Origin: Cellulomonas aerilata
Lineage (GTDB): Bacteria > Actinomycetota > Actinomycetes > Actinomycetales > Cellulomonadaceae
Assembly (NCBI RefSeq): GCF_007991755.1
Contig: NZ_BJYY01000013.1
Span: 434,001-498,000 of the forward strand
Length of the DNA: 64,000 nucleotides
Reading direction: 5' to 3'
Shown: positions 57,396 through 64,000 of the stretch, piece after piece
Layout: each line of letters starts with the position of its first letter
Numbering within the stretch: position 1 is the first letter of the stretch
Program-made: the position numbers and the translations under genes
The notes under the pieces: generated by a model
What the model was told of the DNA's origin: nothing
The model's database searches: none
What the model saw: only the letters and a program-made list of their open reading frames with translations

Positions 57396-57483
57396 AAATG
57401 GTCGCTCGTCGGGGTCGAGCTGTGGTTCGTCAAACACAACGTCGGACGTCCGATGCGAAATGGACGACTTGGCGCAGGCCGCG

Positions 57484-57930
57484 TCCGGGATCTTCACGAC
57501 CGACGAATCCCGAGGACGAAGGCCAACATCGACCACATCGTGTCTCGGCGGCAGGCGCGTTCGTCATCGACGCCAAGCACTACGAGGGTTGCGGGCCCCA
57601 GCTCCGCGTGCAAGGCGCGCTCTTCCGACCCCGCGTCGAGAAGCGCTTGGTAGTTACGAGCAATCACACGGAACTCGTCGACGGCGTGCACAAGCAGGTC
57701 GTCCTGGTTTGCGCCGCCCTGGACGCCGCCGGACACTCGGACGTGCCGTGCCGCGGAGTGCTCTGCTTCGTCGAGGCCAAGTGGCCGCTGCTCGGCGGGT
57801 CCTTCGTCATCGACGGCGTTCACCCTGGTGCGTCCGAGGACGCTGGCCAAGACCCTGACCAGTCCAGGTCCACTGGATGAGGCGATGACGGAGCAGGTGC
57901 ACCGCGCCCTCCCGTCCGGCCTGACCGTCG
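57484..57930 (+). pseudogene. Decayed second copy of the NERD-domain gene
   Basis: Three consecutive frames match the intact protein encoded at 12032-13000: VRDLHDRRIPRTKANIDHIV, then GAFVIDAKHYEGCGPQLRVQ with HSDVPCRGVLCFVEAKWPLL, then VRPRTLAKTLTSPGPLDEAM. At least two frameshifts separate them, and the N-terminal zinc ribbon and linker are missing. The parts are in the right order with high similarity, so this is a relic of a paralogue or of an incoming homologue. Confidence 0.85.
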
Positions 57931-58794: not shown

Positions 58795-58923
58795 ATGGGT
58801 CGCGTGAGCGGGCACCCGGAGGAGTTCCGGGCGCAGGCGGCGTCGCTGGTCGTTGACGGCGGTCGAGGGGTGCGGGACGTCCCCGTGAGCCCGGGGGCGC
58901 CGCCGGCGGTAAGCCGCGATTAG
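58795..58923 (+). mobile_element. IS3-family OrfA fragment
   Basis: A 42-codon frame MGRVSGHPEEFRAQAASLVV then DGGRGVRDVPVSPG matches the N-terminal HTH of IS3-group OrfA. GGGAGGGG precedes it, and the upstream TGACACCCGTGGGCCGGACA, continuing CCTCC, may be the IS end. The element is cut off after the first helix-turn-helix, directly at the 3' end of the zinc-module nuclease gene, so insertion or deletion occurred there. Confidence 0.65.
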
Positions 58924-60992
58924 CTGCCTTGCTCGGACGCATCCACTCCGACGTCGCCGAGCACTATGGTGGAATCTATTCCATCGATTGTTTCGCGATG
59001 GCGTGCGCCGCCGTCGATGGCTTGCCAAGCCGTCGACGAGGTCCAATACCCGTGAGCAATAAGGACCCGAGCAATTTCGTCCTCGACGGTAGCAGCATCG
59101 GTGAGTCGTACCATTCGCCACCCGTTGGCCGCAGCCCACGCGTTCTTGATGCCATCACGCCGCTGTACGCCTGCCAGCATCGCATGCGCCTCGTCGTGCG
59201 TGATCCCTCCCCACCGGACGGGGATACGGTGCTGTTCACCATCGAATTCGATCAGCACCCTTGCGCGCAGAAGCGCGAAGTCGAAAGCCAACGGCCTCAA
59301 GTCGCGGCAAGTGTGATCACGCCATTGGTGTTCGAAATCGATGGCCAGACCGGTAAGGACCCGATAGATCGCCACCTCGCCTTTCGATGTTGAACATTTA
59401 GGGCACCCACTACCGCCCAGATGGACCTGAGGAAGTTGTTCGAAGGGACCGTGAGTGGCGCAGCCAATCGCGACCTTTGTATACGCATTTTGGTATTCGG
59501 TAGCGGAGTAATCGTACAAGTCTCCATGAATAGTACGGGCACGCCCAATGAACTGGACGGAAGTGCCCGACATGACCAGTCGACGGACTTCCACAGCGCA
59601 GGCAGGGCAGCCGCTTCCATTCAGATGGCTAGCAGGAGTCTGCTGAAACTCGCCGTGCTCTCGGCAAGCGATTGTGGTTTTTATGTGAGAACCCACCCAA
59701 GTAGCCTTGGAGTAGTCGAAGCGGCCGGCATGGACAGCGAAGGCTCGGTCGAGGAAGGCGTCGAGGCTGCCCGCGCGCGCCAGAGATATCCGGTTGAAGC
59801 CGCACTGTGGGCACCCTCTGCCGCTCAGATGCGAGTTTGGCGTTTGACCGAACGGGCCGTGCTTCCTGCAAATGATTGTAACCTTCGACTGACTCCCGAG
59901 ATAATCGACGAGCGAGTAGTCGAAGGTGCCTCCGTGCACACTGACGGCCTTGAGGACGAAAGATACCGTAGTGTCGGCGTTGGCGATCCCGATTGCTTCC
60001 CGCCCGCAATTCGGGCAGCCGACACCCGACAAGTGACTACTTGGCACCTGCTGAAACGAGCCGTGCTGAACGCACCTGATCGTCACCTTGACTTGGCTCT
60101 TAACGTATTTCACCTCGGAGTAGTCATAGACTCGGCCGTGAATACGTTCCGCTTTGGCGATGAACGACTGCTTCGTATCGGCGAGGGCACGTGTTATCGC
60201 TTCTTGGCCGCAGTCCGGACAGCCGCTGCCGCTCAAGTGTTGATTTGGTGTCTGGCGGAACATTCCGTGCCTCGGGCATTCGATAGCGACCTTTTGCTGC
60301 GCGGTCACATACAGTACGTGCCTATATTCGTAAGCCGCACCATGAATCCGATGAGCCTTGGCAACAAACTCCTCAGTTGAGCTCGTCTGATTTGCTGTGC
60401 GCTTCTCGACGCCGCAGTCTGGGCATCCTGTGCCCCTTAGGTGACTGCTCGGCACCTGCCAGAAGAACCCGTGCCTGAAGCAGCCGATCTGTACCTTGCG
60501 GGCACTCGTTACATACGCGGTCCTCGAGTAGTCATAGGATTCACCATGCGTCTCGATTGCCTGCTCAATAAACTCGACGGTCGAGCCGCGCCGAAGAAGA
60601 CCACGTTCGCAATCGGCGCACTTTGGACACCCCGTTCCCAACATGTGGCTATCCGGGGTCTGCGAAAATTCCCCGTGTTCGGCGCAGACAATCGTCACTT
60701 TTGTTTTGGTGTTTATATACTCCGCGCGCGCATAGTCGTAGCGTGCGCCGTGGACCTCCCTCGCCCTCTCCACGAACCGTTCGCCGGTCAGCCGTACTCG
60801 CCCCCCGCACTGCGCGCAGCCTTGACCGTGAAGGTGTTTAGCTGGTGTCTGCTCGAACTTTCCGTGCTCGGCACAAGTGATTGCAACTTTGGTTTGACTG
60901 TTGACGTAATCGACTTCCGAATAGTCGTACCTGTCACCATGCGTGAGGCGAGCTTTCGAGACAAACTCTAGGGCCGTGTACCTATCTGCCAT
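58920..60992 (-). CDS. Eight-module zinc-knuckle protein with C-terminal EDxHD/Vsr-like nuclease
   Basis: A 690-residue protein from ATG 60992 (GGGGAG upstream). It contains eight tandem units of ~68 residues (about residues 6-550) with the plan FxxKAxxxHGxxYDYSxxxY, then KVxIxCxxHGxFxQxPxxHL and GxGCPxC. Most units have one Cys before HG and a CPxC pair, so each may bind zinc. The C-terminal ~140 residues form a nuclease: LAFDFALL, VLIEFDGEQHRIPVRWGG near 578-595, RRDGIKNAWAAANGWRMVRL. Glu, Asp, His and the later Asp match the EDxHD homing-endonuclease/Vsr group. Phage homologues usually carry fewer modules. An array of DNA-reading modules joined to a nuclease is inferred. Confidence 0.85.
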   Translation of the reverse strand: MADRYTALEFVSKARLTHGDRYDYSEVDYVNSQTKVAITCAEHGKFEQTPAKHLHGQGCAQCGGRVRLTGERFVERAREVHGARYDYARAEYINTKTKVTIVCAEHGEFSQTPDSHMLGTGCPKCADCERGLLRRGSTVEFIEQAIETHGESYDYSRTAYVTSARKVQIGCFRHGFFWQVPSSHLRGTGCPDCGVEKRTANQTSSTEEFVAKAHRIHGAAYEYRHVLYVTAQQKVAIECPRHGMFRQTPNQHLSGSGCPDCGQEAITRALADTKQSFIAKAERIHGRVYDYSEVKYVKSQVKVTIRCVQHGSFQQVPSSHLSGVGCPNCGREAIGIANADTTVSFVLKAVSVHGGTFDYSLVDYLGSQSKVTIICRKHGPFGQTPNSHLSGRGCPQCGFNRISLARAGSLDAFLDRAFAVHAGRFDYSKATWVGSHIKTTIACREHGEFQQTPASHLNGSGCPACAVEVRRLVMSGTSVQFIGRARTIHGDLYDYSATEYQNAYTKVAIGCATHGPFEQLPQVHLGGSGCPKCSTSKGEVAIYRVLTGLAIDFEHQWRDHTCRDLRPLAFDFALLRARVLIEFDGEQHRIPVRWGGITHDEAHAMLAGVQRRDGIKNAWAAANGWRMVRLTDAATVEDEIARVLIAHGYWTSSTAWQAIDGGARHRETIDGIDSTIVLGDVGVDASEQGS

Positions 60993-61257
60993 GGTTGTCT
61001 TTCTCCCCGTAAGCGCTCGCCGGTCCGCGAAACACACTTGCACGGACCTGCACGGTGCACTAGAGGCGTGCAGCCTTGTGGATTCATTACTTTCAGCGTC
61101 AGCGCGGAGAAGACATCGAGTCTGTGGCGTCCGCACGCGCCGGCGGCCACGCTATATGCCAGCAAGATTCGGTCGGGAACCTTGCCGGCCCATCGGCGGT
61201 TGCCGCAACGACCGCGCGCGGCAGCCGCCTGCGCCGTGCTGAGTGGGTGAGCTAGCT

Positions 61258-62079
61258 TCAGTTTCCGAATGCTGCCGCGATCTGCGGATCGCTGTCAGCG
61301 GCCTTGATCGCTCGGCTGAGGTTCGGGCGGTCGGTGTGCAAGGACCGAGCGAGCTCTGCGACAGAGCTGCCGTCGGAGTCGTAGAACCTAAGCAACCGCG
61401 AGAAGCCAGCCAGGCCGAACTTGAGTGAATGTCGAGCCTGGTCCAGGGCTGCGTCGGCCGCTTCTCGCATGAGCCAAGCCTGGGCAATCTTCACTGCCAT
61501 AGGGTTTAGCGGCTCGATGTCCGGCGTCTCAATACCGGCCGCCAGCTTGTCGTCTGTGCCCCCAAACTCATGGGCGAGGGCGTTGACCCATTCCGCGTAT
61601 TTCGCGTATGCGTCGAGCACGTCGTAGGTGTGAGTAATCTCGATCGCGCCATCGGCACGGGTTCGGAAAATCTTCGACTCCTTAGCGCCAACTTCTTCCG
61701 GGATCAGTGCGACGATCCTGTCTCGCCAGCCCGCAAAGCGCCTCGCCGCCCCGTTTTTAAGGCTCTGCGCGAGGAAGAGCCGCCGGGCGTCTGCTTTGAC
61801 ATCCGTCTCACTGGCGTTTACGAACCGGTAGACCCGAGGCGTCCCAACGGGCGTCCAGTCGAAGTCTTCCGAGACCTCGATCGCGCCGCTGTAAAGTACC
61901 TGCTCGCCGGTGGGTAGTGTCCAGGCCATAACTGTGCCGCGGTCGGATATATACCGCGCGATGACTTGATGGTCATCGTCCGTCTCCGTGACAGGCAGCC
62001 CAGCAGCGGCAGACGAATCGTCAGCAGCGACGGCGTGGCGGAGTGCAAGAACCGCTGCGAGGGCCCGATGGTGTGTCAT
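61258..62079 (-). CDS. Hypothetical protein with C-terminal HTH-like segment
   Basis: A 273-residue soluble protein. The last ~45 residues (GSSVAELARSLHTDRPNLSR, then AIKAADSDPQIAAAFG) look like a helix-turn-helix. The first ~70 residues (VIARYISDRGTVMAWTLPTG, EQVLYSGAIEVSED) suggest a small beta domain, and the middle is helical. No known family is recognised. TAGCGT ends six bases before ATG 62079, so expression is probably leaderless. It lies upstream of, and on the same strand as, the zinc-module nuclease with 265 bp between them, so it could regulate or accompany it. Confidence 0.6.
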   Translation of the reverse strand: MTHHRALAAVLALRHAVAADDSSAAAGLPVTETDDDHQVIARYISDRGTVMAWTLPTGEQVLYSGAIEVSEDFDWTPVGTPRVYRFVNASETDVKADARRLFLAQSLKNGAARRFAGWRDRIVALIPEEVGAKESKIFRTRADGAIEITHTYDVLDAYAKYAEWVNALAHEFGGTDDKLAAGIETPDIEPLNPMAVKIAQAWLMREAADAALDQARHSLKFGLAGFSRLLRFYDSDGSSVAELARSLHTDRPNLSRAIKAADSDPQIAAAFGN

Positions 62080-62509: not shown

Positions 62510-62650
62510 CGACCAGGTGGCGACGGATGAAAACTGACCACCCTGCCCTCAGTCGCCGGTCGCGGGGGTGCGGCCGAGGTCTCGGTTCTTGAGTCGGTAG
62601 GAGTCGCCTTTGAGAGCGATGACGTCGGCGTGATGGACGAGCCGGTGGGG
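62510..62650 (-). mobile_element. IS21-family remnant (IstB C-terminus and element end)
   Basis: The frame reads HRLVHHADVIALKGDSYRLK then NRDLG before its stop at 62549, matching the C-terminal end of IstB, the IS21 helper ATPase. Just beyond, GGTGGTCAGTTTTCATCC is of the type found near IS21 ends. The remainder of istB and all of istA are gone; the fragment is fused in frame to the broken helicase. The region 62080-62509 holds no gene I can support. Confidence 0.6.
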
Positions 62651-64000
62651 CTGCGCGGCTCCCACGAACGCGCAGAGCGTGGAGATGAGCCGCATCTCCT
62701 CGACGTCGCGGCCGCGGCTGTCGAGTAGTTGCTCGGTGCAGGCGAGGTAGGCCAGGCATCGGGCCCTGCTGATCGCGACGTTGAGCCGCTGCCGCCAGAA
62801 GAGGAACTCAGTGTTGCGGGGCATGTCGGCGGCGCTGGAGGTCGCCATGCTGAAGAAGACGACTGCCGCCTCACGTCCCTGGAACTTGTCCACCGATCCG
62901 ACTGCCACGCCTCGCGTGCGTGGGTCCGCGTCGAGGCGCTGGCGGAGCAGGTCCTTCTGGTCGTTGTTCGGCGCAACTACCAGGACGTCCGCTACGCGTA
63001 GCGGCTCCGTGACGCCGTGCTGGTCGACCCAGGGCGCGCCGAGCAGCCGGGTGATCTCGGCGTGCACCAGGTCGGCCTCCTCGGCCGCGTGCGTTGAGCG
63101 GCCGACGTGGTCCGCCCGCAGCCAGCGCAGGCCCGTCCCGAAATCGGTGTCCTGCTGACCGCAGGTGGTATGGCTGCTGAGCCTGCCTTCGTAGATGCGC
63201 TCGGAGATGAATCGGCAGATGTCGGGGTGCATGCGCCGGGTCTCACTGAGGAAGACGCCGCGGTCCTCCGGCATAGTCACCTCGTCGCCGAGGAGGTGCT
63301 CAAGCGCGCTGCGGCCGCTCGTTCCTGGGTGCGCCGCTTGGGCGACCTGCGGTAGCTGTAGTGGGTCGCCGAGCAGAAGGAGGTTGTGCCGGCGACCAGC
63401 GCGAACGTGGGGGCCGCCGCGGCCCTGTTGGCACTCACGTGCGCGACCTCGCCGGATGTCCAGGTCGCCGGGCCGCCCTTCTTGACCGCGTGCAGGTCTT
63501 CGAGCTCGTCGAGGTCGCGGTAGACCTCGACCACTGCTTCGAGCAGGTTGTCGATGGCGTGGTGGCTGAAGGCGGTGATGCCGACCCGCTTGCCTGCCTG
63601 CAGCAGCGCGCGGATCTGTCGGGCTGCGCGGTAGGTCTTGCCTGTGCCCGGTGGTCCCTGGACCGCGACGCAGGTGCCATCCAGCGCGGCGGTCCAGCCG
63701 AGCATCGCGTCGAGGTCGTCCGTGAATATCCCGCCAGCCGGTCCGCGGCCGGGCAGAAAGCGCGGCAGCTCGCCGCGCAGCAGCGCCAGCGCGACGGGGT
63801 TGGCTGCGACGGCTGGGTTCAGCACAGCATCGGCGAGTGCGGACAGGGCGGCCGGCTTGGGCCGCGGTGTGAACCAGCTGTCGTGAGCGACGACCGCTGG
63901 AAATACGCCTTGCTTCTGCAGACCCGTGGACCACACCAGGTCCAGCTCCCCGGCCGCAACATCGAGTCGCGCGATGTCCGCGAATGCAGGCGGCCCGTCC
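62651..64000 (-). pseudogene. Broken SF1 (UPF1-like) DNA/RNA helicase, cut by the window end
   Basis: Two frames give the halves of an AAA_11/AAA_12 helicase. The right half (64000 to about 63385) has VAVQGPPGTGKTYRAARQIR (Walker A) and SHHAIDNLLEAV. The left half continues NLLLLGDPLQLPQVAQA, RGVFLSETRRMHPDICRFIS, VGSVDKFQGREAAVVFFSM and FLFWRQRLNVAISRARCLAY. At about 63385 the frame changes, and the ~35 residues with the Walker B DEAG motif expected between LVAG and NLLLLGDPLQL are missing. The enzyme is therefore very likely dead. The C-terminus ends in IstB sequence, and the N-terminus lies beyond the window. Confidence 0.8.

Follow-up and report, generated by a model that had tools for sequence, protein, structure and literature searches.

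Towards the right-hand end of the window (the whole stretch of 64,000 nucleotides of Cellulomonas aerilata DNA that was analysed) lies a minus-strand gene of 690 codons, present in a single copy in its own genome. The original prediction placed an open reading frame with a clear ribosome site at 58920-60992 and described its product as eight units of about 68 residues followed by a nuclease. The reading frame is exact on the minus strand and starts with ATG, and GGGGAG, ten bases upstream of the start, is a plausible ribosome site, although the frame stays open beyond this ATG, up to a GTG at 61136 (738 aa). The eight modules repeat with a near-exact period of 68 residues and precede a C-terminal nuclease, as had been described, and the features of the gene are as follows.

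58920-60992, minus strand: whole gene, 690 aa, a predicted eight-module zinc-finger array with a Vsr/EDxHD-type nuclease
61003-61008, minus strand: probable ribosome site GGGGAG, read from the sequence
60807-60977, minus strand: module 1 (residues 6-62)
60618-60788, minus strand: module 2 (residues 69-125)
60414-60584, minus strand: module 3 (residues 137-193)
60210-60380, minus strand: module 4 (residues 205-261)
60006-60176, minus strand: module 5 (residues 273-329)
59802-59972, minus strand: module 6 (residues 341-397)
59598-59768, minus strand: module 7 (residues 409-465), modelled with module 8 and the nuclease
59394-59564, minus strand: module 8 (residues 477-533), modelled with module 7 and the nuclease
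59043-59393, minus strand: putative Vsr-like (EDxHD-type) nuclease domain (residues ~534-650), from conserved residues, a predicted model and phrog_9084

The array is marked by GCxxC motifs (n = 8) at residues 58, 121, 189, 257, 325, 393, 461 and 529, spaced once by 63 residues and six times by 68 residues, and CxxHG is present in all eight modules. Pfam matches above cut-off are to DUF4379 (5.9e-21), DUF723 (4.4e-11) and CapR (3e-5), and the several zinc modules of ~60 aa and CapR/DUF4379/DUF723 type that characterise the family are thus present here, eight in number. The modules had been called zinc knuckles; they are of a zinc type, but Pfam describes a probable treble-clef zinc finger and so no knuckle of the retroviral sort. 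Identity between modules is 40-58% in protein and 49-60% in DNA, so the array is old and its modules diverged long ago; a recent tandem duplication is ruled out by so low a DNA identity. When the eight modules are aligned over 57 columns, 17 columns do not vary and 21 reach an entropy of at least 2 bits. The net charges of modules 1 to 8 are -1, 0, -1, 1, 5, 3, 0 and 0, and modules so close to neutral are, judging by sequence, not what we would expect of a strong general DNA binder.

Residues ~534-650 contain the segments SKGE, FDF, IEFDGEQH and RDGIKN. Seven residues (D571, E582, G585, Q587, H588, D613 and K616) are the same in all 20 proteins of a first alignment; in an alignment of 91 sequences, D571, E582 and G585 are still invariant and Q587, H588, D613 and K616 are kept at 90% or more, so that what had been predicted as a full set of catalytic residues can be given as the retention of the family-conserved nuclease residues. 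A predicted model of modules 7-8 with the nuclease (mean pLDDT 93.5, pTM 0.73) has the Vsr structures 1vsr and 1cw0 as its first and second Foldseek matches, with a probability of 1.00, a TM to target of 0.55-0.56, and a best E of only ~5e-3; for the whole-protein model (the first one, from 20 sequences; pTM 0.32), the top match is again Vsr (1cw0, E 0.047). The models thus point to a C-terminal Vsr-like nuclease with conserved acidic and His residues, as in the family. We assign it to the EDxHD type from its conserved residues and predicted Vsr-like fold, and the residue given to each letter of the EDxHD motif is our assumption.

Sequence profiles also connect this region with endonucleases. 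The PHROG family phrog_9084, named 'homing endonuclease', matches at 5.1e-13 with its best stretch at 530-640, and the two best PHROG families for the gene are named 'HNH endonuclease' and 'endonuclease'; the HNH label finds no support in the Vsr-like C terminus. Pfam at E 0.01 finds DUF2726 in 13 of the 91 relatives, DUF559 in five, a PvuRts1I-like domain in four, and Vsr in one. The whole protein has no match at E 1 when compared by sequence with PDB chains, and the only match in the A2 profile search is to AbaSI (E 0.17).

Relatives are found in 1,076 of 50,697 phage records and 54 of 72,556 plasmid records, and in two of 150 genomes of the same family and two of 396 of the same phylum, its own genome counted in both; the occurrence of the gene is sporadic. 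From 425 loci we obtained 259 distinct complete ORFs with modules and a nuclease of the same type, in which the number of modules ranges from one (14 ORFs) through two (30), three (77), four (99), five (25), six (8) and seven (4) to eight (2); because the loci were picked by similarity to the queries, this distribution is biased and does not give population frequencies. A further 63 complete ORFs have modules, with a nuclease of this type not detected in them. The count excludes module hits in which gaps took up more than 12 columns, ORFs that ran off a contig end, and identical copies, so that 472 module ORFs came down to 342 distinct arrays, with close alleles kept separate. Module number in homologues had been proposed as a check on the idea of a modular nuclease, to which a fixed number would have been unfavourable; it varies from one to eight, and the nuclease models are Vsr-like, so the idea was right. 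The second of the two ORFs with eight modules lies on a viral contig (L301, 1189-3138, plus strand), with the same nuclease type and with DUF4379 and DUF723 found by Pfam; under a looser model, one more bacterial gene (in L087) reaches eight. With eight modules each, the window gene and the viral ORF have the longest arrays of the final count; the window gene is a long member of a known, little-characterised family, adding to one that has been outlined already.

Module arrays are also found with other partners. The compared stretches of eight Vibrio and two Klebsiella phages (L248-L257) contain 28 distinct module arrays, with no Vsr-type nuclease among these 28 at E 0.01. In the eight Vibrio phages there are 9 to 14 tblastn places per record, a figure that overcounts genes because one gene yields several places. 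In Klebsiella phage JYSS3, a three-module gene that encodes a T5orf172 nuclease domain interrupts the DNA polymerase gene; the same polymerase is a single ORF in phage KpV52, with the left JYSS3 piece corresponding to residues 1-524 and the right piece to residues 529-725. This array gene (L257, 4082-4972) is annotated as 'type 2 secretion system protein'. By analogy, JYSS3 offers a precedent among relatives for insertion into a target gene, but the nuclease type differs.

The nearest relative found is an Actinoplanes italicus gene, which is ~61% identical, has eight modules, and is split by a frameshift inside module 4; its two pieces were compared separately and entered the module count as two ORFs, one of four modules with the nuclease and one of three without. 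Six of the seven comparable (complete) modules fit their own counterparts best, at 60-72%, the exception being module 3, which is about as close to module 1 (54%) as to its counterpart (53%). In the split module 4, the N-terminal part is equally similar to modules 1 and 4 (56%), and the short C-terminal part is most similar to module 4 (77%). Module number and, largely, module order are therefore kept at ~61% identity. Differences at codon positions 1, 2 and 3 are 0.32, 0.27 and 0.57 for one piece and 0.29, 0.23 and 0.58 for the other, indicating constraint on the protein in both.

The gene has a GC content of 57.8% (GC3 0.65). The 2-kb blocks of the window range from 60 to 82% GC, with at least 66% in 27 of the 32, and the blocks around the gene are at 60-63%. 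No empty site or target allele was found in the family, genus or Actinoplanes comparisons, and no intron or split host gene was recognised around the gene. The adjoining neighbour protein is matched in one of 200 family genomes, which is its own, and the left-flank DNA is matched in four of five genus genomes, its own included, the other three only partially. The Actinoplanes gene has a glycosidase-like ORF on one side and a VIT-family ORF on the other, and its locus and the window have no neighbour proteins in common at E 1e-4. Its left flank is a conserved gene, and similarity stops with it in the five genus loci compared, which extend ~1.5 kb beyond it; its right flank is multi-copy in relatives.

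Upstream of the window gene and on the same strand, an orphan protein of 273 aa is encoded at 61258-62079 (minus strand); neither the other 199 genomes of the family nor the plasmid records contain a match to it. The HTH-like character that the original prediction gave to a protein upstream is present weakly, as a MarR match (0.0095) below the Pfam cut-off. A PDDEXK/RNase H/AAA helicase gene at 62549-64000 (minus strand) runs on past the window end to L083 ~11036. It is apparently frameshifted near 63277, and the frame downstream closes with a short tail resembling IstB (the IS21 helper), which suggests a past IS event; with this frameshift and tail, the island looks partly decayed. Beyond the window end, at L083 11037-14204 (minus strand; window ~66037-69204), a 1,055-aa PLD/helicase/DUF3427 protein scores 1170.9 bits against PADLOC mREase_IV; it lies ~5 kb upstream of the window gene on the same strand, and past it are CoiA-nuclease, ParA and AAA_5 genes, the whole stretch being a possible defence or mobile island. 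At 57481-57805, the DNA is 71% identical to a second place in its own genome (G000:C13:446549, window ~12549) and to two places in a genus mate; the ORF there has no Pfam match at 0.001 and, by its motif, is what we take to be a NERD-type fragment.

The gene probably encodes a free-standing homing-type endonuclease of the CapR/DUF723/DUF4379 and EDxHD/Vsr kind, in a lower-GC stretch of a high-GC chromosome. We infer zinc binding, DNA binding, cleavage and homing for the protein, and with them a DNA target. The eight zinc modules, arranged as beads on a string, would contact an extended DNA segment and bring the metal-dependent nuclease at the C terminus to the cut site; the cut would then be repaired from the gene-bearing copy, and the gene would spread.

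The gene had been predicted to be an active defence or homing system. The homing-type origin fits the family, whereas support for defence is circumstantial: the island might use the protein to cut incoming foreign DNA, either by itself or together with the restriction genes nearby, and a type IV restriction gene does lie 5 kb away, with the PDDEXK/RNase H-type helicase ORF, a CoiA-type nuclease domain, ParA and an AAA gene nearby. However, no PADLOC model picks up the gene itself at E 0.1, the Actinoplanes relative lies among quite different neighbours, and the adjacent helicase is the one that appears frameshifted, with its IstB-like tail, so that we regard a defence nuclease as unlikely. A domesticated DNA binder or regulator with an idle nuclease, comparable to CapR in phage satellites, would be in keeping with the description of CapR, which is related to such modules, as a transcriptional repressor (PMC10448857); it is very unlikely, as the family-conserved nuclease residues are intact and the pattern of codon differences points to constraint in both parts of the Actinoplanes gene, the second of which includes the nuclease. 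Least likely is a gene remnant or passenger without present function, for although the helicase with its IstB-like tail leaves the surroundings partly decayed, the DNA at 57481-57805 is a diverged, partial match to repeated sequence, and the Actinoplanes gene is itself frameshifted, the window ORF runs uninterrupted for 690 codons, has a plausible ribosome site, and keeps its zinc and catalytic residues.

The modules may have a preferred set of recognition positions. Between the window and Actinoplanes genes, the residue is kept in six of seven module pairs at column 27 and in five of seven at columns 46 and 47, and in none of the seven at columns 3, 7 and 56. Across ~36 independent pairs of other orthologous arrays, residue identity in matching versus non-matching modules is 0.57 vs 0.11 at column 27, 0.54 vs 0.08 at column 47, 0.49 vs 0.05 at column 28, and 0.48 vs 0.11 at column 46, with low columns such as 11 (0.33 vs 0.24) and 7 (0.39 vs 0.20) at the other end. 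Columns 26-28, 46-47 and 2 are among those best retained for module identity, with many intervals overlapping, and the top columns were chosen after looking at the data. In the predicted model, columns 26-28 would lie in the loop before the main hairpin and columns 46-47 where the short helix that follows the hairpin begins.

This comparison was run three times, with ~8, 13 and 36 independent orthologous array pairs (from 11, 20 and 53 pairs). Retention at the best columns weakened as the data sets grew: kappa is 0.61, 0.73 and 0.52 for column 27, 0.59, 0.58 and 0.42 for column 46, and 0.62, 0.68 and 0.35 for column 52; these values are not strictly comparable, because the pair-acceptance rules differed between runs (a margin of 0.08 in the second and 0.06 in the third). 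The array-pair data and the window/Actinoplanes pair agree weakly over 30 variable columns (rho 0.32, p 0.08). It is doubtful that the eight modules form a long DNA reader, programmable in part, in which each module would make its own short contact, in order, with specificity lying mainly in the loop (columns 26-28) and where the short helix begins (columns 46-47), such that module shuffling could retarget the nuclease. Were the modules to read DNA independently, they would provide another natural parts list for programmable nucleases, and the window and Actinoplanes genes, as a pair, give a handle on how these common phage modules recognise DNA. No recognition code for these modules is announced in the titles or abstract openings of the open-licence papers that our searches gave.

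TALE and C2H2 zinc-finger nucleases likewise join a row of small modules to one nuclease, and their modules vary at two to four positions. The original prediction invited comparison with other modular nucleases and suggested looking for a concentration of variation at a few surface positions; variation among the window modules is instead strong in 21 of 57 columns (at least 2 bits), with 40-58% identity between modules, which leaves a few-position code unsupported and sets aside a TALE-like array of near-identical modules differing at few positions.

Three kinds of homing endonuclease are closer to the window gene. Those of the T5orf172 type are described in PMC10448857 (2023) as having repeated zinc-finger domains with recombination between them and domain exchange, and the repressor CapR as having originated from such domains. 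Related DNA-binding modules in tandem are thus common to both, but the nuclease here differs, with a Vsr-like C terminus and no Pfam match to a T5orf172 or GIY-YIG family at E 0.1. I-Bth0305I is presented in PMC3943268 as an elongated protein of several domains that contacts a DNA target of nearly 60 bp and has an EDxHD nuclease; the window protein is likewise predicted to combine a multi-domain DNA-binding part with a nuclease of this type, although I-Bth0305I is absent from the best 50 Foldseek matches listed for both the whole-protein and the nuclease-model searches. Closest are the homing endonuclease genes of phage group II introns, which, according to PMC12350094 (2025), encode three to five domains with a distant relationship to CapR, DUF4379 and DUF723, followed at the C terminus by ~100 aa that are distantly related to EDxHD/Vsr; the paper calls them a large unrecognised outgroup, for which profiles give thousands of UniProt hits. 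The window gene differs in having eight modules rather than three to five and in being chromosomal and free-standing with no intron seen, but the plan is the same: several CapR/DUF4379/DUF723-related domains of ~60 aa, followed by a nuclease related to EDxHD/Vsr.
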